Translations under genes and position numbers: made by a program
Origin: Populus alba
Taxonomy: Eukaryota; Streptophyta; Magnoliopsida; Malpighiales; Salicaceae
Assembly (NCBI RefSeq): GCF_005239225.2
Contig: NC_133301.1
Span: 12,214,318 to 12,278,317, forward strand
Direction: 5' to 3'
Length of the DNA: 64,000 nt
Shown: positions 7,273-59,263 of the stretch, in pieces
Position numbering within the stretch: position 1 is the first letter of the stretch
Layout: each line of letters starts with the position of its first letter
The notes under the pieces: generated by a model
Databases searched by the model: none
What the model saw: only the letters and a program-made list of their open reading frames with translations
Told to the model about the DNA's origin: nothing

Positions 7273-7394
7273 ACTTTCTCATTTTCTGTTTTTCCTCTCC
7301 TTTAAATTTCCAATAAACAAAAAGAATACCAAGAAAAGCACATCAGTTTCTTCTTTCAGCAATATTTGAGCTTTCAAAATTTAGTCTCGAAACC

Positions 7395-8597
7395 ATGTTC
7401 TTTGATTCACCACCACCACCTCCTTCTCCTATCGGGTTCGAAGGCTTTGAAAAGCGCCTCGAAATCACTTTCTCTGAGCCATCCTTGTTCAATGACCCAA
7501 ATGGGCTGGGACTACGTGCCCTAACTCGATCTCAAATCGATTCAATCCTCGAACCTGCTTGTTGTACTATAGTATCTCAGCTCTCCAACACTGAGTTCGA
7601 CTCTTACGTTCTCTCCGAGTCTAGCTTGTTCATTTACCCACTAAAAATTATCCTCAAAACCTGCGGTACCACGAAGCTGCTTTTATCTGTAGACCCCATT
7701 CTGAAACTAGCTGAGTCACTCTCTCTTGATGTATGTCACGTGACTTACTCACGTGGCAGCTTCATCTTCCCTGATTACCAGCCTGCCCCTCACCGTAGCT
7801 TTGCAGAAGAAGTCACTGCTCTGAATGGGTATTTTGTGAATTTGAATGCTAATGCCTATGTTATTGGCCATCCCACCTCTGCTAACCGTAATTGGCATAT
7901 CTATGTGGCATCTAAGGATTCTAAATCACTGCCGTTGAGCAAAGATCACACGTCTGCAGTTACTCTAGAGATGTGCATGACTGGCTTGGATAGGATGAAA
8001 GCGGCTGTATTTTATAAAAAATCGGCTGATTATGCGGCTGCTGAGATGACTAAAATCTCCGGGATTAATGAGATCATGCCTAGTCACGTGATTTGTGACT
8101 TTGACTTTGACCCCTGTGGGTATTCTATGAATGGGATTGATGGTACAGCATTGTCTACAGTGCATGTGACCCCAGAGGATGGGTTCAGTTATGCTAGCTA
8201 CGAGGCTACGGGGTTCGACTGCGGTGAGGTGAAGTTGAGGGGTTTGGTGCAGAGGGTGCTCAAGTGTTTTGGACCACGTGACTTCTCTGTTGCTGTCACG
8301 TGCCATGGTGGTGGTGGTGTTGGGATCCAGTGGTGGGCAACTGAGTGTGCTGACGTGGAGGGGTACTTGTGTGACAGTGTGGTGAGGCAGGAGTTGCCAG
8401 GTGGTGGGTGTTTGGTTTACATGACTTATCATGAGGTGAAAGAGTCCAAAGGGTGCACACCTGCTAAGATGATGAACATGCCGTGCTGGAAGGATGTGGC
8501 GGAGGAGGAGGAGGTGGTGTTGGGGCTTTGTGGTGGTGGTGGTGGTGGTGGCATGATGACCTGGCCTTATATTTCGTCATTCCACGCCGTAGACTGA
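7395..8597 (+). CDS. SAMDC: S-adenosylmethionine decarboxylase proenzyme
   Basis: Makes decarboxylated SAM, the aminopropyl donor for spermidine and spermine, in the cytosol. The 400-residue, intron-free main frame has the family landmarks in order: IGFEGFEKRLE near residue 13 (active-site glutamates), the self-cleavage site YVLSESSLF with the future pyruvoyl serine at about 76, CGTTKLLL with the catalytic cysteine at about 91, the TRGSF-like turn SRGSF, DFDPCGYSMN, and HVTPEDGFSYASYE with the processing histidine at about 258. The start at 7395 follows the uORF leader. Plant enzymes usually end soon after CCWKEEE. This one continues about 25 residues through a seven-glycine run coded by a GGT microsatellite (8530-8551) to SSFHAVD. 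The N-terminus has a proline run. It looks like a full-length, diverged paralogue. Expression is probably set by the uORFs upstream. Confidence 0.95.
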   Translation: MFFDSPPPPPSPIGFEGFEKRLEITFSEPSLFNDPNGLGLRALTRSQIDSILEPACCTIVSQLSNTEFDSYVLSESSLFIYPLKIILKTCGTTKLLLSVDPILKLAESLSLDVCHVTYSRGSFIFPDYQPAPHRSFAEEVTALNGYFVNLNANAYVIGHPTSANRNWHIYVASKDSKSLPLSKDHTSAVTLEMCMTGLDRMKAAVFYKKSADYAAAEMTKISGINEIMPSHVICDFDFDPCGYSMNGIDGTALSTVHVTPEDGFSYASYEATGFDCGEVKLRGLVQRVLKCFGPRDFSVAVTCHGGGGVGIQWWATECADVEGYLCDSVVRQELPGGGCLVYMTYHEVKESKGCTPAKMMNMPCWKDVAEEEEVVLGLCGGGGGGGMMTWPYISSFHAVD

Positions 8598-14769: not shown

Positions 14770-15856
14770 ATGGGCGGCCCCACCCACGGTAAACCATCTC
14801 AATTCTCACACATTTCTCTTCTGCCAATCACTCTTCTCTCAGATCTTCTCTCCGCTTTTTTTTTTTTATGAATCAAATACTAATCTCTAACATTTCTCTG
14901 CAGATTCCTCCGATTTCCTCACCGACAAATCTGCAAAAATCTTCGTGGCTGGACACCGTGGTCTAGTCGGCTCCGCAATTGTCCGCAAGCTCCAATCCCT
15001 CGGCTTGACCAATCTCGTTCTGCGTTCCCACTCCGAGCTCGACCTCACGCGCCAATCCGATGTGGACTCCTTCTTCGCCGCTGAAAAGCCCCAATATGTT
15101 ATCCTAGCCGCCGCTAAAGTTGGCGGAATACACGCTAACAATACATATCCTGCCGATTTCATTGCAATAAATCTCCAGATCCAAACTAATGTAATCGACT
15201 CCTCTTTTCGACATGGAGTTAAGAAACTGTTGTTTTTGGGATCCTCTTGTATTTACCCTAAGCTAGCACCGCAGCCGATTCCTGAAAATGCACTGCTTAC
15301 TGGGCCTTTAGAGCCAACGAATGAGTGGTACGCGATTGCGAAGATATCTGGGATTAAAATGTGTCAGGCTTACAGGATTCAGTATAATTGGGATGCTATT
15401 TCTGGAATGCCCACGAATTTATACGGGCCGAATGATAATTTTCATCCAGAAAATTCTCATGTTTTGCCGGCATTGATGAGGAGGTTTCATGAGGCGAAGG
15501 TGAATAAGGCCAAAGAAGTGGTTGTTTGGGGAACTGGGAGTCCGTTGAGGGAGTTTTTGCACGTTGATGATTTGGCGGATGCGGTGGTGTTTTTGATGGA
15601 CAAGTATAGTGGATTGGAGCATTTAAATGTGGGGAGTGGGAAGGAGGTTACTATAAAGGAGTTGGCAGAGTTGGTGAAGGAGGCTGTTGGCTTTGAAGGG
15701 GAGCTTGTTTGGGATACATCAAAGCCCGATGGGACTCCAAGGAAGCTAATGGATAGTTCTAAGTTGTTGGGATTGGGTTGGATGCCAAAGATTTCGCTGA
15801 AGGATGGGCTAGTTGATACTTATAAGTGGTATGTGGAGAATGTGGTAAAGCAATGA
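14770..15856 (+). CDS. GER1: GDP-L-fucose synthase (GER-type epimerase/reductase)
   Basis: Second and last step of de novo GDP-L-fucose synthesis in the cytosol: NADPH-dependent 3,5-epimerisation and 4-reduction of GDP-4-keto-6-deoxymannose. It supplies fucose for cell-wall xyloglucan, pectin and N-glycans. Exons are 14770-14788 (MGGPTH plus one base) and 14904-15856, joined by GTAAAC and CTGCAG, giving 323 residues. Visible motifs are the NADP fold [12 protein letters not shown] near residue 21, GSSCIYPK (catalytic Ser and Cys, about 120-122), the Y-x3-K pair in YAIAKISG (about 149 and 153), [15 protein letters not shown] and [12 protein letters not shown]. Length is slightly above the usual 310 or so because of the N-terminal extension. 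No damage seen. The product call is secure, but the choice between GER1 and GER2 is not. Confidence 0.95.
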
Positions 15857-15959: not shown

Positions 15960-18900
15960 ATCATCGTGTACTCGTTACACTGGACTGGAGTGTATGCATA
16001 ACATCAATAATCAAAACTCTTGCTTGTCTTGATATTTTGTCCCAGCTCTATCACAAGCGTTATTTGATTCGCCATTGATTTTTCTTTCGATTGCAATATA
16101 GGCGATTATAGATAGTGCAGCAAGCAATGGGCAACTGTTTAGGCAACATGCTATATGCTTTCTTGTTTCTAATGCCTGCCTCAATTGGTGATAGTTCCTA
16201 CCATTAATTACCCAGCTTTTTTTAGAAATCTGGTGTTCAGATTAGGTTTATTTTGTGATTATTTTGTTATAGACACCTCTCCTGCCTGAGTTTTATGCTC
16301 TTCCATTTTTTTCACTGATCTTTATTGTGGTTTCCCCGCATTATACATTTATATTTCCCGCTGTTTTTCTGTACACAACCTTGCGAAATGGATGATGGTC
16401 TCAATTGGTTTAGAAGCTAGAATCATCCCATTCTCGTTTAGCCTCGTTGCCCAATGGCCACACAGTTTCTTCATTACATATACTTGTTAGTTATGAGTTC
16501 TCGTGCAAAATTATTTCATCCAACATCAGGAGCATCTAAGCCCTGGTATTAACGACGAGTTCATTGTCTTTATATCATCTGAAGGTTGATCACTTCAAGC
16601 AAAACTTTTGCTGTCAGTTCCAATAGGATTACTCCGCAAATAGTAGGCAGTAGAGGTAGTAGAATCATAGGACAGGGGAGACCAATATGACAGTATGGAA
16701 CATATTTGAGCCTAAGGTAACAAAGGGACACTAAACGACATTCTTGATCTTGCTTAGTTCGTGTTCAAATTCTTCTTGATTTTGCATTCTTCAGGACCAA
16801 AAATGAAGACAATGATATGGGATCTTTATCTTTTAGAATCTGGAACCTAGAGTGCTAGGGTTGGTGTGGTTACCTTCTCAAAAGTCAATTACATGAACCA
16901 TGGATGAAATTATGCTATTTTAATTGGTCATGCTGGTTATCAGAAGTCGGGTGTAAGCATTTATGTTCATGTAACAATGTGATCATGCATCAATTTCTGA
17001 ATTGTAACCTTCAGGCATGATGAAGAAAATGGTAGATACAATCAGATGCACAGATTCTCTCTTTCTACTATGGTTCAAGATATGTTTTGAATTGCGGGAT
17101 CAGGATCCACAAGTACTCAATCCTTGGCGATCTAAAATGTTTTTTGCTGATGGAGTTTGGACATTGGCATCTGCAAGTAGAAAATGACAGAAAAAACAAG
17201 TTTGTAGATTTCGTTTAGATATCCAAATGCATTATTTTTCTTATTCACATGACATGATTGAAGCATAATTTTTAGATAGAGTGAGAAACCTCTCGCGCTG
17301 GAAAACATAACCGTGGTTTGTGTATGACCGGTATCCGTGCAGACATAATGGAAACCTGTGGACAGGTGACAGCAGCTACGAGGTTTCATCCAATGTCAGG
17401 AAGAGTTTAGCTCTTGTTCTGTTTTGGGTATTTATGGACTGTTCCCATACCATATCATGCTGTTAGATGCACAAAAGAACGACAGTTTGAAGGATTTTGT
17501 GGAATTCCAGCCTGCTTGGATAACAGGGGGAGGATGTTTGTAATAACTCCACTCAAACATTTACTCCCAGAGGACATGGTTAGGTGCAATAATGCATAAT
17601 TGAGAAAAGAAATCGAGAATTATTTTTGTTTCCTTGAGAGGAGCCTAGTTGACCTGTAGAAGGACTGAGGAAAGGGTAGCAGTGTGTTGATTTTTCTGGT
17701 TAACAGAGGAGACCACTGGTAAACAAACAACCATGACTTCAAATCATTGTTGCAGTCGCCCTAAGCTAAAGCCATACCCCATTGCTGAATCTGGAATTCA
17801 TGATCATGATTTTCCACTCGTGGGCATTATTTCATTAAGATAATATAGAAATTAATGTTAACGAGAGGTTTAGATGCTCGTCAAATACCTCCTGCTGTTA
17901 GTCAGCTGGTCGTGAGAATGAAGAAACCTCAATGGAGTCACAGCAGTTCTAAATTTTGATGACCAAGTTTCATGGCTTAAAAACGAGGACCGGGATGATG
18001 AGGGCAGGAATGATTGGGGTACACCATGTGACGCATGCATAAAAAACACAACTTTATTTTGAAATTTATTACTAAATATTTTCTCATTTAAGTAATTTGA
18101 ATCGGTTTTACAGCTTTTTGAAATAAATTTAAAAATTAATCTAAACCAATTATGAAATTCAAAAAATAATTTTTTTTAACAAAACTAGCCATAACAATAT
18201 CTTCCAGGCCTAACTTGGAGGTCTTCTAGACCTTGACTAGTTATAACTAATAAAAAATTAATAGATAATCTTATAAAAAATTTAAACATGATTCAAACAT
18301 CAAATAAAAAATGTGAATCTTTTTATAAGATTGTTCATCTTATGTGCTCTAAGCTTCTTCTTGAGCTTAAAATTTGAACACAATTCAAGTCATTACAGTT
18401 CTGTATCACGTCTTTATCTATTTTATATCTTGCCTCTTCTTAATCCAATTTTCTTTATCCACTTAGTTCAGCCCCTTGTCAAGTCTGTCCTCGTTGGCCT
18501 AGACTTTGGTTTAACACCATAATACTTAAATGAAGTTGAACCTATTATTTAACCTTTTTTTTTTTAAACTTCGAGAACTAATTTAACGTGTAACATGCAT
18601 CTAAAGAGCACGGATGCTAGCTAGCTGCCGTGCACTTTATCCGGTCCCTGTGATTTGAAAGATTTGAAGGTACGAGGAAAACAAAGGCACCCGATGCTGC
18701 ATCATCCATTGGATGGGACGGGGCCAGTCTTGATTGCCCTTGTTTGCTGGTATCTAGCTAGCTCGGAGAGTTATTTGGAGTCTCTGTTGGCCAAACAAGA
18801 GAACAAGATATCCATTTCAAGGCAGGCAAGGAAACGTTTTGCCTTGTAAAAGTGGTAATGTTTGATCTTTGTTTAGGCTTTGCAAACAAACCAGAGAACG

Positions 18901-20100
18901 CTGGATGCTACCGGTTTTAGGAAAATATACTTGAAGTGGACGACCCACCCACAGCGGAGCGGTGACCCCTCTACAGGAAACTGACTGTTCTTCTCCATGA
19001 GGTTCAAGACAACATTCAGATAACTACAATTCAGTTATTATTGTTGTCGTTGTTGATGTTCATAACACTGAACTCTGATTTAGTCGGTATCGATTATGAT
19101 CATGTTCTATTACTACTAAAGTAAATCTCTGAAATAAATTACTGTTGAAATTTGTTGTCTTACCTTGGCAACAAATGTTCACGGGTTAATCAGAAACAGT
19201 AAAAGGAACTATACACGGGGCAGATGGGAGTAAAAAACTTCTGTCTCCCAGTCTTGTTTTTTCCCTCTATTTATTTTTAATCTTCAAGTAAAGTTGATTC
19301 CAGCCCAGAAACCGCCCCCCTCACTGGAGATTGTTGAGAAGGGATAAAACAAGAAATCAAGGGTCTTGTATAAAAAAGAGGAGAAAAATTGCGTCGTTTA
19401 TGAGAAATGCCGAGGGCTAATTCACTTGTTTTTTTTTCTATTCAAACTCTTCTTTCCAGGAAACCCACCATCATTCCCTCCCCTTTATTCAAGACATAAA
19501 ATCCTGTAAAATAAACTGCGGGGCTATTAAACAAAGCTCCTTCCACATGCAAACCAAAACCTAAAGAAAGGAAACACAAAGTGACATTTCCACGAAATAA
19601 GAGGGCCTCTCTGATCTGTCGTAGATCACATCTCACACTTTTTTGTCCTTGCCTTTGTTTTTCTTGCTCAGTTTTTTATTCATACAGTCACACACACAGG
19701 CCTCTAGAGCAAGGCCTAGCTCTAGAGGCCTTAGACAAGCAGTTTCAGTGTTTCCCTGGCCCTAGAAATGATGCATTGTCACTTCATAATGCACACCCTT
19801 AAAAACACACCATTCGAAGTAAATTAAACAGGCCGCGTATCATACAAGGGGAAATTTCAAGAAAAAATCTCAAAACATAATTGATATGGATGAAGGTGAC
19901 ATAATAATTCCTTGAGGATTTGAGCACATACTATCAACTATCAAGCCCCTACATTTCCCAAGAAAAATTAATTAACAAAAGGGACAGAAGCAAAGACTGA
20001 CAGCGAAACAGAGCTGAAACATTGAAGTCTGTACGCTTTAGGGGACCCCAATATTTTAAAGCTTTTACTCACCGAACTACATGGAAGGTAGGTGCCCCCA
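15960..20100. other. Long region without a recognised gene
   Basis: Composition is less AT-rich than the repeat-laden parts, yet no frame carries a recognisable domain. Frames at 17414-17599, 18655-18849 and 19581-19802 look like chance. The first few hundred bases are probably the GER 3' UTR. The rest could hold noncoding transcripts. Confidence 0.4.
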
Positions 20101-20412
20101 TTTGCTGCAATTAAATCCTCTACCTCTTTCTGACTTCCTCTAAGGGGTAAATTTGTTCTATGCTTGAACAGGAGTCAAGGCACAAAACTAGAACACCAAA
20201 CAGCAAGTTAATTAGTATTACAGTGAAAGAAACAAGAATCAAAGGTGCCATGCCAACCTTTTGTTGCACTTCCACATGAACATTTGGATGCCAATTACAT
20301 ATCAACAAAACTATCAGCCAAAAAAAAAGGAAACGAAAGGGAAAAAATAGGAAAGCTAGTAACAAAAGTAAAGCAAAAGATTAGTAAGTAGTCCTATATC
20401 ATAATAAAGAGA

Positions 20413-20435
20413 TTGAGCCGTCTAGCCAATATCAC
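20413..20435 (-). ncRNA. Candidate miR171 endogenous target-mimic site
   Basis: Read on the minus strand, the site is GTGATATTGGC, then TAG, then ACGGCTCAA. Removing the central TAG leaves a continuous 20-base complement of miR171b/c-type miRNAs (which begin UUGAGCCGU and continue GCCAAUAUCAC). The three extra bases fall between miRNA positions 9 and 10, where a mimic bulge blocks slicing. Against the miR171a register the bulge falls between positions 12 and 13. The pattern matches known endogenous target mimics such as IPS1 for miR399. No miR171-star partner is visible nearby, so this is not itself a miRNA hairpin. Flanking sequence does not read as a GRAS protein. Transcription is inferred from a TATA box near 21160. 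Confidence 0.6.
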
Positions 20436-20967
20436 CACCATGCCCCACCACCATTTACCAGAAGCCAGGGAAGCAGAAGAAGAGGAAGAAGAAGAAGTGA
20501 GCTTTTTGCAATGATTGGATAAAAGAAATGTGGTTTCTTGTGTATCCAGACATGCCGCCACTCAAGCCTAAAACTCCGATTTGCTTGACAAATATTCTCA
20601 TGACAAAGGCCACACATGCCTCAATGCCCCAAGTAACAGCACCCACATGTCTCACCATGTTCCAGCAGCAGCAGCAGCGGCCGGAGAACCCTATCATTAC
20701 ATGAAGCGCAAAACCAATGAGCGAAGGTTTGATACTTAAAACTCCACCACTACAAAATAGAAAGAAAGAAAAGAAATCAAACAAAGAGAGTAAAGCAAGA
20801 AAAACAATAAGTGAGTGGGTGAAAACGGCCAAAATGAAGATGAAATCAGAGAAGAGTGAACATAGACTTGGGATTGGATGTCTGTACGTTTTCTCTGCTG
20901 ATTTCTTATTTCCTCTGAGATAAGCCCTTGATGGGTTCCCTTGTCCTATCTTAAGAAGATGGAGAGG

Positions 20968-21048
20968 GTGGAAACGATGATGCAAAGAAGCAGAGGACAT
21001 GGGGAGGGGGTGGAAACGATGGTGCAAAGAAGCAGAGGACATGGGGGC
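20968..21048. repeat. 42-bp tandem duplication
   Basis: Two near-identical units starting gtggaaacgat at 20968 and 21010. On the minus strand they would encode the peptide unit MSSASLHHRFHPLP twice, in frame, inside the host of the miR171 mimic site. Confidence 0.85.
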
Positions 21049-21155
21049 TTTGGCTTGTGAGCACATCCACTTACAGGCTGCAATGGTGAGAGCCTTGCCT
21101 AAAACATAATGAGGCCAAGCTAAATGTGGGCAAGAAGGGAAGAGAGTGGTGTGTT

Positions 21156-21162
21156 TTTTATA
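21156..21162 (-). promoter_or_regulatory. TATA box, minus strand
   Basis: TATAAAA on the minus strand followed by a CT-rich stretch (ACTCTCTTCCCTTCTTG). It is the best promoter signal for the transcript carrying the miR171 mimic site. Confidence 0.4.
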
Positions 21163-21399
21163 CGGCAATGAACATGGGATTCTTGATTGTAGGATGCGGT
21201 ATGCACTCGTTTGCCTTCAAGCTCCCATTTACTTCACTTCACTTGCTTGTACCAGGAGCCCAGATGAGCTAGATTTGCGCAAGAAATCTCTGTCCTCTCT
21301 CTTCCTTTTCCAAGCCTCCTCTTTATTATTTTCCAAGATTCCACTATTACCCTTTCTCCATGTTGGTATTCACGACTTGAGCAAAGTAATTATTTTTTA

Positions 21400-22390
21400 A
21401 CGCCCCCCCCCCTCTGGTTTATTATTGATGCTGGGTTTTATTTTTTTACCAGCACCATTTCAATAAATAAATAAAATAAAATAACATAATTCAAATTATT
21501 TTTTTGAAGAAATGACAAAGCTTCTACACAGAAAAACACAAGTTTTAAAGTCGTTGTTACTTGAAAATGCGACATTTCAAAAAAAGTTTCAAAAGATATG
21601 GCACAAATAATAATGAAGAGAAGAGAAAGATTGAAAAAATTATGGACATACATTGAAACTTTAACTAAGATAATTCTAGTATTATTTGAAAAATCTTGAT
21701 TTTGAAAAGATAAATTTAATGATACAAAGCTTTAACTAAGATAATATTAATATTATCAAAAAAAATCTTAACGAGATAAATTTAATTATATAAAAAAAAT
21801 AACTAACAATAATCAAAGTAGCCTTATACTCCCCGAGTGGCTCATTTTTTATTAAAGCAACATGTATGATTCATTTTGATAATAATTAGTGACATTTCCT
21901 TGATATTGTTATATTTTCTTTGTGATCTTCTTGCGAAGATCCTTGTGAAGATATAGAAGGTGCTATACTTGGAACTTTGGTGTATTTTTATAGTTTTTTT
22001 TTTAATTTTTTTAATTTTTGACTTTTCTCTTTTCATTGTAATTGCTTATTTATCTTTGAACGGAGAGTATGATCCATTTCCGTCACTGATAATGACTTTG
22101 ATGGTGTTATATTTTTTTCTTGTTGAGATTTTTTTAAAGATATTAATAGTGTAATAACTAGAGTTTTGGTACTTCTTCATAGTTTTTTTTTTAGTTTTTT
22201 TCTCTTATTTTTCTTTATTGTAATTTGTCATTTGATTTTTACCTTTTGCAATGTATTGTTTCTAACTAGCTGACAACTTTAAATTTAGAACTTCTCAATC
22301 ACAACATATACAACCTATATTATTTCAAGAAAAAAAAATTATAAACTGTGTTAATCTGTAAATTTTGTTTTAAATAATGCTATTTTTTTT
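21400..22390. other. AT-rich intergenic DNA
   Basis: No gene. A run of C at about 21402-21412 is followed by AT-rich low-complexity sequence. The small open frames on both strands are composition artefacts. Confidence 0.5.
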
Positions 22391-22399
22391 TTAAAAAAT

Positions 22400-22880
22400 A
22401 ATCTTGGTGCTGTGTGATTTCTTTTTAAAACTAAGAGGTCTGGCTCTCCTGACAAAACGGGCATCGGGGTCGAGGTTAAATTTCTCGAAACAGCCACCAA
22501 AACCCTACACAACGGTGCTTCGTGGCCTAACATTCGTTTGTGGATTCAAGGGACTGAGGAGTTTGTATACCTTAAGCAGCTTCTCTTCTCTAGTGCCTAG
22601 ATAGATGGGGCCATATCCAATCAATTTACAGATGAATGGGGCTTTCAGCTTTGACCCACTGGTCAAGTACCGCTCCTCCTCAAGAACTCCGTCGTGAGGT
22701 CCGTTTTTCATGGTGGAAGAGAAGACAGAGCAGGTGGCCCTTGCCAACCCTCTCCCCCTTGTAGCTATCTTGCGAAAACCAGATGGGGGTGCTATGGTCA
22801 ATCTGTCCAAGAAGGGTAAAAATACCCCTGACTTTACGTATCCATGCTATCAGAAAGAAAGTGTCATGTGATGCGAATTG
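22400..22880. other. GC-richer island of unknown, possibly organellar, origin
   Basis: Base composition shifts abruptly from AT-rich flanks to nearly balanced sequence. It has long open stretches on both strands, including 22404-22604 (+) and 22810-22505 (-), with arginine- and serine-rich translations. Such islands in AT-rich plant intergenic DNA are often nuclear copies of plastid or mitochondrial DNA. I do not recognise the source gene, so this rests on composition only. Confidence 0.3.
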
Positions 22881-22899
22881 CCCTTTATGGAGTTCGCTT

Positions 22900-25800
22900 T
22901 CTAGAATAGTTATAAAATCTAGCCTGGTCGCCTATAACTTTTGTTTAAGTTTTGTGTCCTCGATTTAGCGAATTAATCTACGTCCAAATCAATCTAAATT
23001 AATTTAAACAATTATGATTTTGAAAAAAAATATATTCAAATTAGTCTTGTTTAAGTTTAATTAGGTTAATTTTCAACCCAATTAAATACATAACCTAATT
23101 CAAAAATAAATTGAGTTAACCTGCTAAGCTAATTTAGCAGAGAATAGCAGGAAAGAATAGTAAGAAACCTCAACCAAGCTTGTTTTGGTGCATTCTAAGA
23201 ATCGGCACCACAACCAACTATATAAACTATGACACAGTTTTTTTTTTTTTAAAAGAAACTTTAGTGCTGTTTTAATAATTATAATCATTGTTAAAAACCT
23301 ACTGGATTCAAGATCTGGATGACAAGTTAAAATGTTCATCCTAAATTTATCAGAGTCAACTTAACCTTCTACATTAAAAAAAAAAAAAAAAAAAAACAGG
23401 GTTTTTCTATTAGTTTGGTCCAAGCCAAATCCTAAATTAATGGATCATTGGATGGACCTACTGGGTCATGTTAAGCCTTATAACTATAATTCAAGTAGAA
23501 TTTGGAGGGACAAGATTCCCCTTCAAGCCTGTCAACTGTTGAATGATGGGAGAATCGTAGGACACAGTTCATACACGACAGTACAGCATAGGAATCTGGG
23601 CTGTCGAGGATCGATCAAAATGTTGGATTTGAATACGTGTATGGTGATGGGATTAGGGTGCACCAGAAGTCCAATGCACACCTTCTAATGGAACATTGAG
23701 TGCTTTGGTGTCCAAATCCAGGCTCTAAACTATCATATTACAGGATCAGCAGCAAGAGACAGAATGCCTGAGGTAAAGTCAGGCATCAGAGAAAGAGGAA
23801 CGGATTTTTCAAGGAAAATTGAGAGAGTGGTACCTCAAGAGAAAGGAGGGGCAGCTCTTAAACCAAGACAGGGCTTGATCAGGAATCTATGATCATACGG
23901 TCCTGATTAAAGAAAAATACAACCAAATGAGAACAACAAATCTGAAAATATAACCCTTTTTTTAGCAATTAGAAATTGTCACAACACAAACAAAAAAAAA
24001 GAAAAGCAAAAGCAGATAAAAGAAGGAAGGTAAAGCAAGAATAGGAATATAAATGAAGGGTCTGATAATTCAAAACGGTGCGAGTGAGATCTCTCATGCA
24101 AAAATGGTGATTTAGTTTTTGGGTTGTCTCTTTCCAAAGAAGGTACTGTATGTTTTGAAGCTTTTCTGTGCCAGCACTAAGGAAAAAGGCTTGAAAAAGA
24201 ACACAAGAATTAGAAATATCCCAGTTCTGATCTGCTGGTCAAGAAGATAAAAGAGGAGCTAAGATATCAATCGTTTTCAACCAAGATATTCACACATCAT
24301 GCTAGTACTTCTTTTCCTGGCCTTACTACTGTATCCAAGCTTTACAGAAACCGAAACAGCTTAAATTTACCAAATTGTTTCAGTAGCTTGGTAATGACAA
24401 CATACGACACATCCTTGCTCTCTTTTGAGAGAGAGAGAGAGAGAGGGGTGATTTAGTACCTGTTGTTTGCTGATGAATGCGAGCAAATTGTGCTTCAAGA
24501 GACCAGATTCTTGATCTATTACCGCTGAAACAAACCAGAGATGAAGTTTAGCCAGAAAAAGGTTTCAAGAGTGTGTTTTAGTCATACAAAAGAACAGTAA
24601 TGTTTCTTTTTCGTGGTAAAGAAAATTGACAGCAATAAAATGAGAGGCTACATGCAGTCCTACAAAAGCAAAAGGTCTGCTCTTTACAGTAGCAACCCCA
24701 TTTCTTAAAATCTCAAGAGAAGCTTTTTGATATCAGCATTCTTCCTTTTCCTGCCTCTAATAAAGCGATGGAGTACTGCAGGTGATGATTATAAAATGCA
24801 GAATCATCAATGGGGCAAGTTTTATAGCCTTTAAATGAGAAAAGCAGCAGGTGCCGCTATCCTTTTTTCTAGCTACCCATGATTTTTGAGACAAAACACA
24901 CTAAGACTTGATTGCAAGAAAAATCCAGGACCCTTTTTCAGGCTCTAACCATAAAGAGTGCCAACATGTCTGTTGCTGTATGTAATTCTGAATCATACAT
25001 TATGATTGCTTCATCTGAGAGATGATCGTGAAGACACTTCATTAATTCGTTTTAATTGAACTCGGCTAAGCTTTTTTTTCTCATCATTTTGAGTGATGGG
25101 CTTTCAGGCCCACTATTGTTTTACTAGTAAAAAAATTTTTGAAGTGTTTTTTATAATAAATATATTAATTTAATATTTTTTTATATTTAAAAATTAATTT
25201 TAAAACAAAAAAAAAAATAAAAACACTCTTCTCTCAATTTGTCCCTAAATACAAAAGGTGGTTCTCCACATATTGTTATGATGGAAATGCCTTCATGTGA
25301 AAAAAGCTCAAACCCAGATCAGAATTATTAAGAAGATTAAATATAAAAAAAAATGAAATTTGACTCCACATGACAACTTGTTTTTTTATAAGATATCTTG
25401 GATTTGAGAATGATCCCCTGAGATATAAAGTAATAAAACCTGTCTCAAAGGAGTACAAACGAAGGCTAGATTATAAGAATAAAATGAGCTCGTTCTTCCT
25501 TTTCTTCTTGATTTTTTTTTCCACTGTCAACTGTTGTTTCTAATTTGACAGCAATGTCTGAGCTAAATTCTTAGCCCTCTGATAAATTTAGCGATATGTT
25601 TCTGGACAGCTGTTCTTTCTCGAACTGGATTGTTAATTATTAAGGACTGGCTTCCCTCCATCAGGTTGCGCGGTCATGTTTCTGGGCAATTTCTTTTCAA
25701 GTTTGGGGCTGTGTTATGATCTGTTCTTCAAAGTTCAAGCTGCAGGATGATCACAATGCATTAAAGTAAGAAAAAAAGAAAAGAAAGCCGAGGGAAGGGA

Positions 25801-37269: not shown

Positions 37270-37462
37270 CAGCTCATTCCATCTTCAGCTTCTCATTCTA
37301 AAAGCCATCCGCTCCCGCTAATAACTGCTCATAATTCACATCACCATCTTCGTTTTCTTACTGCTTCTTCAAAAGTCCACATAGCTTGCCAGAATTGTTG
37401 ACTTTGAAACGATTTGGTCTTAATTTCTTGATCCGAGTTTAATTTCTTGATAGCTTGAAGAT

Positions 37463-38506
37463 ATGAAGGTTACATCCGAGAAGAGATATGCTCTTTTGCA
37501 AGCAGCAAGGGACTCTGACTATGTAAAGAAAGTGTACGGAGGGTACTTTAATGTGTTTGTTGCAGCTTTTGCTGAAGAGGGAGAAGCATGGGACCTGTTT
37601 AGAGTTGTCGAGGGGGAGTTTCCTGACATGAATGAGCTTCACAAATACGACGGCTTTGTAGTTACTGGCAGCCCTTATGATGCCTACGGAAATGACTGCT
37701 GGGTTCTCAAGCTTTGCTTCATCTTGCAAGCTCTAGATGCCATGGGGAAGAAAGTCCTTGGAATTTGCTTTGGTCATCAGGTACTTGATTTAGTTTTTGA
37801 CCATGTCATTAATTTGAACTATAAGCCTCAAATTAACTCCAAACTAGCCCCAAAAAAAGGGGAAAGAAAAGAAAATCCAAACTAACAGGATAAATATATG
37901 CATAATTATGACTTGAGTACTTGCTGAATGGTGTCTTCTGTTGTTACGGAGTTGCTTACAGGTTTTGTGCAGAGCGCTGGGTGGAAAGGTTGGAAAAGCA
38001 TATTCTGGGTGGGATATTGGGTTAAGGAGAGTGAGCATAGTGAAGGATCTGTCGCCATGCAGCTTCCCCGGTGACCTGACAGAAATCCCTCCATCGCTGT
38101 CAATAATCGAGTGCCACCAAGATGAGGTGTGGGAGGTGCCATTAGGAGCTGAAGTGGTTGCTTTCTCAGACAAAACTGGTGTGGAGATGTTCACCATTGG
38201 AGATCACATTCTGGGCATTCAAGGCCATCCCGAGTACACCAAGGATATTCTTTATAATCTCATCGATCGCCTTCTGAGTAACAACTGCATAGAGGTAACT
38301 AAGAAATCAATCACTTGATTTAATTGTTAACCAGTTTCATCGACAAACTTTTGTTTCTAATTAGTTGACAAAAAAAAATAAAGTTTTCCAAAATTTGGTG
38401 ACTGCAGAGTGCTTTTGCCGAAAAGGCCAAGTTTGGATTGGAGAAAGCTGAACCAGACAGAAAATGCTGGGAAAAGATCTGCAAGAACTTTCTTAAGGGT
38501 AGATAA
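37463..38506 (+). CDS. GGP: Gamma-glutamyl peptidase (class I glutamine amidotransferase-like)
   Basis: Cytosolic peptidase that removes the gamma-glutamyl group from glutathione conjugates (GGP1/GGP3 in Arabidopsis). Three exons, 37463-37780, 37962-38294 and 38408-38506, all with GT-AG borders and in phase, give 249 residues, the normal family length. It starts [12 protein letters not shown], with [12 protein letters not shown] near 67 and the nucleophile elbow VLGICFGHQ with Cys at about 102. [11 protein letters not shown] follows, and then GIQGHPEYT with His at about 195 and Glu at about 197 completes the triad. The second intron separates a short lysine-rich C-terminal exon. No damage seen. 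Poplars lack glucosinolates, so the substrate is probably other glutathione conjugates (inference). Confidence 0.93.
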
Positions 38507-58110: not shown

Positions 58111-58138
58111 AATGTTCCATTAAACAATATCCAGGAGT

Positions 58139-59263
58139 AGTATACAGCAATATCCTCTGGACAAAGAAGCAGAGGATCGGCTTGTCTGGAAAGCCAATAA
58201 CACAGGAAGATACTCGGTTAAATCTCTATGTGGGCTTTTATCTCCTAGTTCTCCATTGAACACTGTCTTCTCCTTTAAGGGGATTTGGAGAGGTCTCGTC
58301 CCACCTAAAGTAGAGGTTTTTTGCTGGATGGCCATCATCAACAAAATCAACACCCGCAGCATGTTAGTTAAAAGAGGCATACTGGATATCTCAGCTGCAA
58401 TCTGTCCGATCTGCTTGGCTGAGGAAGAAATGGTCGACCACCTTTTTATTCATTGCTACAAGCACTGGCTCATTTGGTCCAAAATCATCAATTGGTGGGG
58501 CTTAGCTTGGTGTTGTCCAAGGAACTTGGCAAATCTCTTCTCTCAGTGGGACTCTTTGGTTTATGGCAAATTTCAGAAAAAAGTATGGGTGATGTTGTTC
58601 TTTTCTGCGACATGGTCTATGTGGCTTCTTCGCAATGATGTAATATTTAAGCAGAAGATCCCAGATTATGATACTTTGTTCTTCATTATTGTTACTCGGC
58701 TTTGCTTATGGTTAAAGGCTATTGAATCGGATTTTCCCTACTCCTCCTCAGATTTGCTTCGATCTGCTGAAGGTCTGGTTCGGTGGACTAATTCTCAAAA
58801 GTTGAGGATTGGTATTATATGGTCTCCCCCTATGACGAATAGATTCAAATGGAATGTTGATGGATCCTCTATCGGAAAACCTGGCCCCTCCGGAATAGGT
58901 GGTGTTTTGCGGAATCATCATGGAATACTTTTAGGTATTTTTTCTATGCCGATTGGGATCTTAGACTCTAATGTAGCTGAGCTGAGAGCAGTAGTCAAAG
59001 CTATCGAATTGTCAGCCTCTAACTGCTTCTTACATCATAAACATATTATTATCGAATCTGATTCTGCCAATGTCATTAGCTGGATGAATAATTCTTATAA
59101 TAGGCCTTGGATTCATCATAAACTCTTCTCTTCAGCTCAGAGGCTAGCTTCATGTTTTGATTCAATCACCTACTCTCATTCTTACCGGGAAAGCAATCAC
59201 ATGGCAGATCATCTCGCTAAACAAGGAGTGCACAGAATATCTGATTTTGTGGCTTGGTTATGA
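58139..59263 (+). CDS. LINE ORF2 C-terminal fragment (zf-RVT and RNase H)
   Basis: Open without a stop from the insertion boundary at 58139 to the TGA ending at 59263. No natural ATG marks a start because the 5' end is missing. It begins with LDKEAEDRLVWKANNTG. A zinc-binding reverse-transcriptase segment follows (VPPKVEVFCWMAIINKINTR, CPICLAEEEMVDHLFIHC, WWGL). An RNase H domain comes next, with FKWNVDGSS, NVAELRAVVKAI, IIIESDSANVISW and SNHMADHLAKQG, which contain the D-E-D-D catalytic set (about residues 202, 242, 269 and 318 counted from codon 58256). Any translated product would be orphan RNase H without reverse transcriptase. Confidence 0.85.
   Translation, partial: SIQQYPLDKEAEDRLVWKANNTGRYSVKSLCGLLSPSSPLNTVFSFKGIWRGLVPPKVEVFCWMAIINKINTRSMLVKRGILDISAAICPICLAEEEMVDHLFIHCYKHWLIWSKIINWWGLAWCCPRNLANLFSQWDSLVYGKFQKKVWVMLFFSATWSMWLLRNDVIFKQKIPDYDTLFFIIVTRLCLWLKAIESDFPYSSSDLLRSAEGLVRWTNSQKLRIGIIWSPPMTNRFKWNVDGSSIGKPGPSGIGGVLRNHHGILLGIFSMPIGILDSNVAELRAVVKAIELSASNCFLHHKHIIIESDSANVISWMNNSYNRPWIHHKLFSSAQRLASCFDSITYSHSYRESNHMADHLAKQGVHRISDFVAWL

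Follow-up and report, generated by a model that had tools for sequence, protein, structure and literature searches.

Does a short site on the minus strand of the Populus alba genome act as a decoy for the microRNA miR171? We addressed this in a 64,000-nucleotide stretch of DNA (C18:12214318-12278317; hereafter the window), with pattern scans across the 416-Mb genome. An earlier note had read the minus-strand letters as GTGATATTGGC-TAG-ACGGCTCAA, and re-reading the window sequence returned exactly these letters at the coordinates of Table 1. The miR171 sequence on which it had relied was also right, TTGAGCCGTGCCAATATCACG being given as ath-miR171b-3p in PMC6147922 (papers are cited here for those portions of their text that were available). 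RNA duplex prediction confirmed the proposed 20-base complement to miR171b/c-type microRNAs, with miRNA positions 1-20 paired once the TAG is set aside. The most economical reading of the sequence is that the site is a plausible candidate for an endogenous target mimic (eTM) of miR171, and we judge the chances that it is functional to be about evenly balanced.

Table 1. Coordinates, within the window, of the candidate site and of features of its host gene
Feature	Position	Strand	Basis or remark
Block collinear with the C6 duplicate (L002 1273-3034)	19672..21424	-	Holds the site and exons 1-2
TATAAA, proposed core promoter	21157..21162	-	Apparently inside the transcribed region
First coding part, annotated 157-aa 'uncharacterized protein'	20888..21066	-	Spliced translation = P0002
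Intron 1, 138 nt, GT..AG	20750..20887	-	Missing in P0002-P0004
Alternative acceptor of intron 1, 197 nt	exon start 20690	-	Used by P0013
Exon 2 as inferred	20073..20749	-	P0002-P0004 to TAA, P0013 through the site
Possible alternative 5' splice site GTAAAT	20453..20458	-	P0011 exon exit
Stop codon TAA	20457-20455	-	Site starts 19 nt downstream
miR171-complementary site	20411..20435	-	Exact letters read and RNA duplexes
Site 5' part GTGATATTGGC	20435-20425	-	
Bulge TAG, three unpaired bases	20422..20424	-	RNA duplex predictions
Site 3' part ACGGCTCAA	20421-20413	-	
TC extending the match to the UGAUUG register	20412-20411	-	
Exon 2 3' boundary, GTGAGT donor	intron from 20072	-	One gene model, P0006
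Possible poly(A) signal AATAAA, close to where the conserved block ends	19675..19680	-	Motif match only

The place of the bulge depends on the register of the microRNA. It had been put opposite miRNA positions 9-10, which stands for the miR171b/c (UUGAGCC) register, whereas the duplexes place TAG opposite 12/13 in the UGAUUG and AGAUUG registers. The further proposal that the bulge sits as in IPS1 did not survive: strictly, such a bulge lies at 10/11, and here it lies at 9/10 or 12/13. A broader eTM rule places the bulge or mismatches within miRNA positions 9-12 (PMC4608266), and the TAG falls inside this span at 9/10, or at its edge at 12/13 in the UGAUUG register. The seed is paired and pairing is near-perfect outside the centre, positions 1-20 (UUGAGCC..ACG) or 2-21 (UGAUUG) being engaged. 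Using RNAduplex, we obtained -32.6 kcal/mol for the site with TTGAGCCGTGCCAATATCACG, with the bulge between 9 and 10, and -31.3 kcal/mol with TGATTGAGCCGTGCCAATATC, with the bulge between 12 and 13; perfect partners of these two microRNAs gave -38.7 and -37.5 kcal/mol, and one GRAS target site gave -33.5 and -37.6 kcal/mol, respectively. Across ten distinct mature miR171 variants, the energies ranged from -27.9 to -32.6 kcal/mol for the site and from -33.5 to -38.9 kcal/mol for the GRAS target site. Predicted accessibility of the site was average (40th to 73rd percentile) and lends no support to a mimic.

Chance was assessed with a first-order Markov model built from the window, the expectation being taken for the genome on both strands. 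Under this model the expected number of exact GTGATATTGGC-N3-ACGGCTCAA matches per genome is 1.7e-4, uncorrected for how many microRNA families (and gap lengths) might have caught a reader's eye; with any gap of 1-5 it is 8.6e-4. Counts from the genome pattern scans are lower bounds. The looser pattern GATATTGG-N1-9-CGGCTCAA had at least 21 exact genome matches, one of which, the site itself, was bulged among the matches listed, and its reversed control had none. As the Markov model allows about 0.07 chance matches to this pattern per gap length, or about 0.6 over nine lengths, the loose pattern alone proves little, and the single bulged match draws its weight only from the agreement of the fuller pattern at all 20 bases. 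With up to 3 mismatches in its 20 fixed bases, the full pattern had at least seven genome matches, comprising the site (0), a duplicate on C6 (1) and five at 3 mismatches; within 2 mismatches, the site and its C6 duplicate were the only ones among the matches listed. The reversed control at up to 3 mismatches gave at least eight matches, for which mismatch numbers are not shown. Two shuffled patterns gave at least 5 and at least 27 matches, every one at 3 mismatches, and their reversed controls 0 and 2. The exact match with its 3-nt insertion, set beside shuffled controls that matched at 3 mismatches only, thus favours a mimic. Chance is, as the earlier note had argued, a poor explanation of the whole structure, given the expectation of 1.7e-4 and an exact bulged site that is the sole one among the genome matches listed.

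We then asked what RNA would carry the site. A protein search with the 203-aa open reading frame upstream of it returned 13 matches. The spliced translation is identical in all 157 residues to P0002 (Populus alba LOC118034264), and the same intron is absent from P0002, P0003 (P. davidiana) and P0004 (P. nigra LOC133674043), all of which end at the TAA. Four more entries stop there (P0001, P0005, P0007 and P0010), of which P0001, P0005 and P0010 show no splicing and perhaps derive from genomic DNA. One protein of the 13 spans the site: P0013, from a 910-nt contig without the intron, which uses the intron 1 donor with the acceptor at exon start 20690 and continues through the site. Compared with the window (TGA read as W), it is identical at 188 of 200 aligned residues and at 61 of the last 62. 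It has W at all four TGA codons, which marks it as a TGA=W translation of the contig and not a real protein, and its peptide YWLDGSISLL corresponds to the site and the TAG bulge as encoded, with silent changes possible. Public protein records of this kind, in which a plant contig has been read with TGA as W, are no evidence of protein. When the C-terminal 93 residues of P0013 were searched against proteins, P0013 was the sole match, and the 61-aa frame that stops just short of the site had none. That a spliced RNA contains the site is indicated mainly by this single contig. Together with the identical spliced entry of P. alba, it indirectly supports the minus-strand transcription that had been proposed; the strand is probably transcribed and spliced, as far as these records can tell.

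Upstream, the earlier note had pointed to a TATA box. The motif is present, but we do not accept it as a promoter, because it seems to lie within transcribed sequence: P0008, P0012 and P0013 start at ~21228 and P0007 at ~21303, all upstream of TATAAA. The P. alba entry itself starts at 21066 and has no bearing on this question. The motif is translated as YKK in P0004, P0006, P0008 and P0013 and as HKK in the Salix entries P0007 and P0012, and its position reads TACAAA in the C6 duplicate. The host transcript probably reaches upstream of 21066. Towards the other end of the conserved block, the position of AATAAA reads AATCAA in C6.

Several gene models splice the site out. It is intronic in P0006 (P. 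x canadensis), P0011 (the C6 copy, from a hybrid poplar) and P0012 (Salix dunnii). The GTAAAT motif lies 23 nt upstream of the first base of the site, and splicing there would remove the site; P0011, which is of the C6 type, exits at this motif, while P0002-P0004, P0009 (also of the C6 type) and P0013 do not. Both the three models that exclude the site and its presence in just one of the 13 proteins count against a mimic.

The host gene has a duplicate on C6, and we take chromosomes 18 and 6 to be related through a whole-genome duplication in the willow family. The two copies are identical at 1370 of 1645 aligned bases, with 225 gap columns, and further C6-collinear pieces flank the block at 18681-19239, 22424-22895 and 23486-24028. 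The last two, which lie upstream of the host gene, are 71 and 74% identical to C6 and contain short open frames. The C6 duplicate retains the TAG bulge and 24 of the 25 site bases; the one C-to-A difference breaks position 8 in the UUGAGCC register or position 11 in the UGAUUG register. Across the same ten mature variants, duplex energies of the C6 copy were -24.7 to -29.4 kcal/mol (-29.4 with TTGAGCCGTGCCAATATCACG and -28.1 with TGATTGAGCCGTGCCAATATC). Conservation as good as or better than that of the site was found in 149 of 1570 alignment windows (25 columns, 24 identical) and in 79 of 1563 (32 columns, 31 identical). Retention in the duplicate is consistent with constraint but not proof of it, and the site ranks no higher than the top tenth of windows. 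Elsewhere in the alignment, minus-strand positions 20033-19939 are strongly conserved and include its longest identical run (42 nt, 20002-19961). This stretch is T-rich and then reads ATGTAG, the acceptor of model P0011, and is possibly a conserved 3' splice region.

The same observations could describe a neutral near-target, in which a complementary stretch arose once before the duplication and has since drifted slowly, within an RNA whose scarcity or frequent splicing would deprive it of any effect. A conservation rank merely in the top tenth (149 of 1570), the base changed in C6, the exclusion of the site by three gene models and its average predicted accessibility all fit such an origin. 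It accounts poorly for an exact bulged 20-nt complement with an expectation of ~1.7e-4 per genome, although a reader could have been struck by any of several microRNA families and gap lengths, and for a bulge whose length is within the best range of engineered decoys, 1 to 4 nt (PMC3121747). On balance we consider neutrality somewhat unlikely, though a serious competitor.

If the site is a mimic, AGO1-miR171 would bind it by pairing of the seed and of the 3' half, and the unpaired TAG would distort the duplex beside the slicing position. The site RNA would then be held by miR171 but inefficiently cut, and sequestration or degradation of miR171 would allow HAM/SCL6-type GRAS mRNAs to rise. For this candidate, we infer in vivo binding, cleavage resistance and the effect on targets. 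In Arabidopsis, an engineered miR171a decoy with a 3-nt bulge depleted miR171 and raised SCL targets, and bulges of 1 to 4 nt, placed at 10/11, were the most active among engineered decoys (PMC3121747). Because the bulges tested in that study sat at 10/11, neither register at the poplar site is identical to a tested design, and the departure from the 10/11 position of IPS1 counts against the mimic. According to a review, Arabidopsis plants with artificial miR171b or miR171c mimics had a wild-type look, whereas miR171a or miR170 mimics gave a phenotype (PMC8910752). This counts against a strong effect in the b/c register, which is the register that the 9/10 bulge fits.

The register also bears on whether the site might simply be cut. 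In mulberry libraries, the UGAUUG register had 379, 5 and 528 reads, compared with 4, 0 and 5 for TTGAGCCGTGCCAATATCACG, and two other forms of the UUGAGCC register had 36, 9 and 3 and 32, 1 and 0 reads (PMC4131894). With the bulge at 12/13 and positions 2-12 paired in the UGAUUG register, cutting may persist, and the site would then be an ordinary or attenuated target. We regard this as improbable. The uninterrupted 2-12 pairing and the far greater abundance of that register in mulberry argue for slicing, whereas a bulge after position 12 lies at the edge of the 9-12 decoy zone (PMC4608266), the C6 duplicate is also mismatched at position 11, and the miR171 row in the available part of a P. 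tomentosa degradome paper lists only five GRAS genes (PMC4885845).

Whether the host is noncoding, as the earlier note had it, received a mixed answer: the codon pattern fits a noncoding RNA, but the annotation has a protein-coding gene, and neither duplicate has lost its open spliced frame (157 and 154 aa). Over 143 aligned codons, the spliced frames of C18 and C6 differ at 21, 24 and 22 sites at codon positions 1, 2 and 3, and 100 of the 143 residues are identical. The NG86 estimates are dN 0.162 and dS 0.227, and dN/dS is 0.71, compared with 0.66 +/- 0.20 for randomly placed changes; in 65% of 400 random placements the ratio was as low or lower, which gives no sign of purifying selection on the spliced-frame codons. 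The unspliced frames (138 codons, intron 1 included) had 22, 22 and 23 differences and the same outcome. No Pfam family was found for the host open reading frame, P0002 or P0012. The lengths of the four exon indels (42, 27, 3 and 3 nt) are each divisible by three, whereas the intron 1 indels measure 2, 2 and 6 nt; two or more of those in the exons fall within simple repeats, as judged by eye in the alignment. We lean towards a noncoding RNA that has been annotated as a protein.

A genuine short-protein gene (157 aa, LOC118034264) that has the site in its 3' UTR by coincidence seems to us a slightly poorer prospect than a cleavable target. Named protein entries exist in P. alba, P. nigra, P. 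davidiana and Salix, and the open frames and the exon indels divisible by three are what such a gene would give. The differences of 21, 24 and 22 across codon positions, with 65% of random placements as low or lower, do not favour it, nor does a low-complexity sequence without a Pfam family, and a UTR position is in any case compatible with decoy activity (PMC3121747). Because the frame is open in both copies and miR171b/c mimics reportedly gave no phenotype, we raised the weight of the protein gene slightly and lowered that of the mimic; the weight of the neutral reading was also raised a little.

An elaboration of the mimic, which we hold to be very unlikely, is that the decoy is duplicated and gated by splicing: use of GTAAAT (20458) would give RNAs with or without the decoy, and the two copies would have diverged in the register that they trap. 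The C18 copy may block the UUGAGCC register through the 9/10 bulge, while the UGAUUG register may cut it; the C6 copy, mismatched at position 11, may trap the UGAUUG register uncut.

The wider genome supplied the loci with which the site could be compared. Among the matches listed for the looser pattern, the unbulged ones fall at 20 loci, comprising ten MIR171 hairpins, seven loci reading ILARLN and three reading VILVRLKEL; judging by these motifs, we take the two coding groups to be HAM/SCL6 and NSP2. Long open frames with a variant site, GATATTGGTTCGGCTCAA, and the reading VILVRLKEL occur at C5:15954882, C5:16710399 and C14:11254379 (L013, L014 and L020), and are presumably NSP2-like. Across the genome, the Rfam MIR171_1 model returned 20 rows, representing both strands of 10 loci, with 18 rows over the cut-off, and the mature miR171 lies on the 3' arm in the folds of the ten loci (judged by eye). 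The base before GATTGAGCCG(T/C)GCCAATATC is T at seven loci, G at one and A at two (C6 and C18), and all 21 letters of TTGAGCCGTGCCAATATCACG are present at two of the ten (C4 and C11). The A form is the sequence given as ptc-miR171c in PMC4131894 and PMC6147922. Five P. tomentosa GRAS genes cleaved by miR171 are on chromosomes 1, 2 and 14 (PMC4885845), and the GRAS-type matches on C1, C2 and C14 agree with these.

A decayed MIR171 gene or GRAS fragment, on the opposite or the same strand, which the earlier note had named as fatal to its proposal, left no sign and is rejected as highly improbable: the site is a MIR171 complement over 22 nt and one frame reads ILARRLN, the GRAS motif ILARLN plus one residue, but its 60-nt flanks match the 20 unbulged loci at just 10 to 21 of 60 bases, BLAST matches overlapping it never exceed 14 nt, and Rfam found nothing in the whole window. 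The ten genome loci that combine the Rfam RF00643 match, a hairpin and miR171 on the 3' arm lie elsewhere. Fold energies were -26 to -36 kcal/mol at the site and -58 to -78 kcal/mol at the ten MIR171 loci, a weak point that does not discriminate because GRAS-type loci fold almost as well (-49 to -66 kcal/mol).

The window has four other open frames with domain matches, all on the plus strand. One at 7317-8597 is long and matches S-adenosylmethionine decarboxylase (Pfam PF01536, E 7.6e-113). The frame at 14891-15856 belongs to the Epimerase family (PF01370), and we assume it to be GDP-L-fucose synthase-like. A weak class-I glutamine amidotransferase match (PF00117, 22.4 bits against a cut-off of 22.8) at 37454-37885 adjoins an open frame at 37917-38318. 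A retroelement-like frame at 58124-59263, with matches to zf-RVT, RVT_3 and RNase H, is probably from a non-LTR element.

How does the candidate mimic compare with known systems? IPS1 of Arabidopsis shares a 3-nt bulge in a near-perfect site on a noncoding RNA (PMC3121747, PMC6162444, PMC5599236), although it acts on another microRNA, miR399, with its bulge at 10/11 and not at 9/10 or 12/13. MIKKI, a retrotransposon-derived miR171 sponge of rice, offers a natural parallel: its transcript is spliced, its miR171 site is imperfect and apparently escapes cleavage, and its overexpression lowered miR171 and raised the miR171 targets (PMC5599236). The MIKKI site, however, forms across a splice junction, with mismatches at 11 and 14, whereas in poplar the genome carries the site in one piece, with a 3-nt bulge. 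In Lilium pumilum, lpu-eTM171a and lpu-eTM171b are proposed endogenous miR171 mimics that act on SCL6; they were tested by overexpression and with point mutants in lily (PMC9171120).

Computed candidates have also been reported. In poplar, the lncRNA MSTRG.13550.1 is proposed to titrate a small RNA named as miR171, as an eTM of miR171i; this is a psRobot prediction with a low mismatch score, it concerns a vvi-MIR171i-derived RNA with the kinase target CDL1 (PMC9135444), and, judging by its target, it apparently differs from the host RNA studied here. Bulged miR171 sites computed in lncRNAs of cotton (PMC6888562) and maize (PMC4608266) are similar in kind and are predictions only. The cotton paper aligns its sites with Arabidopsis and rice (PMC6888562), and the cotton site and six of the eight maize miR171 rows concern the miR171 5p strand (PMC6888562, PMC4608266). 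A literature search, with most subscription journals outside its reach, found no paper for TGATATTGGC with 'target mimic' or for the gene and protein identifiers of the locus. Natural miR171 decoys are thus already known in plants, and the poplar site would add another, as a candidate.

The regulation of stem cells and meristems involves miR171 together with its GRAS targets (PMC8910752). The site offers a fine test of the bulge position needed to block slicing, and if inactive it would still be a useful negative control for decoy prediction. If the candidate mimic is real, a decoy kept in both duplicates of a tree would provide an entry to the tuning of miR171 dosage in woody plants.
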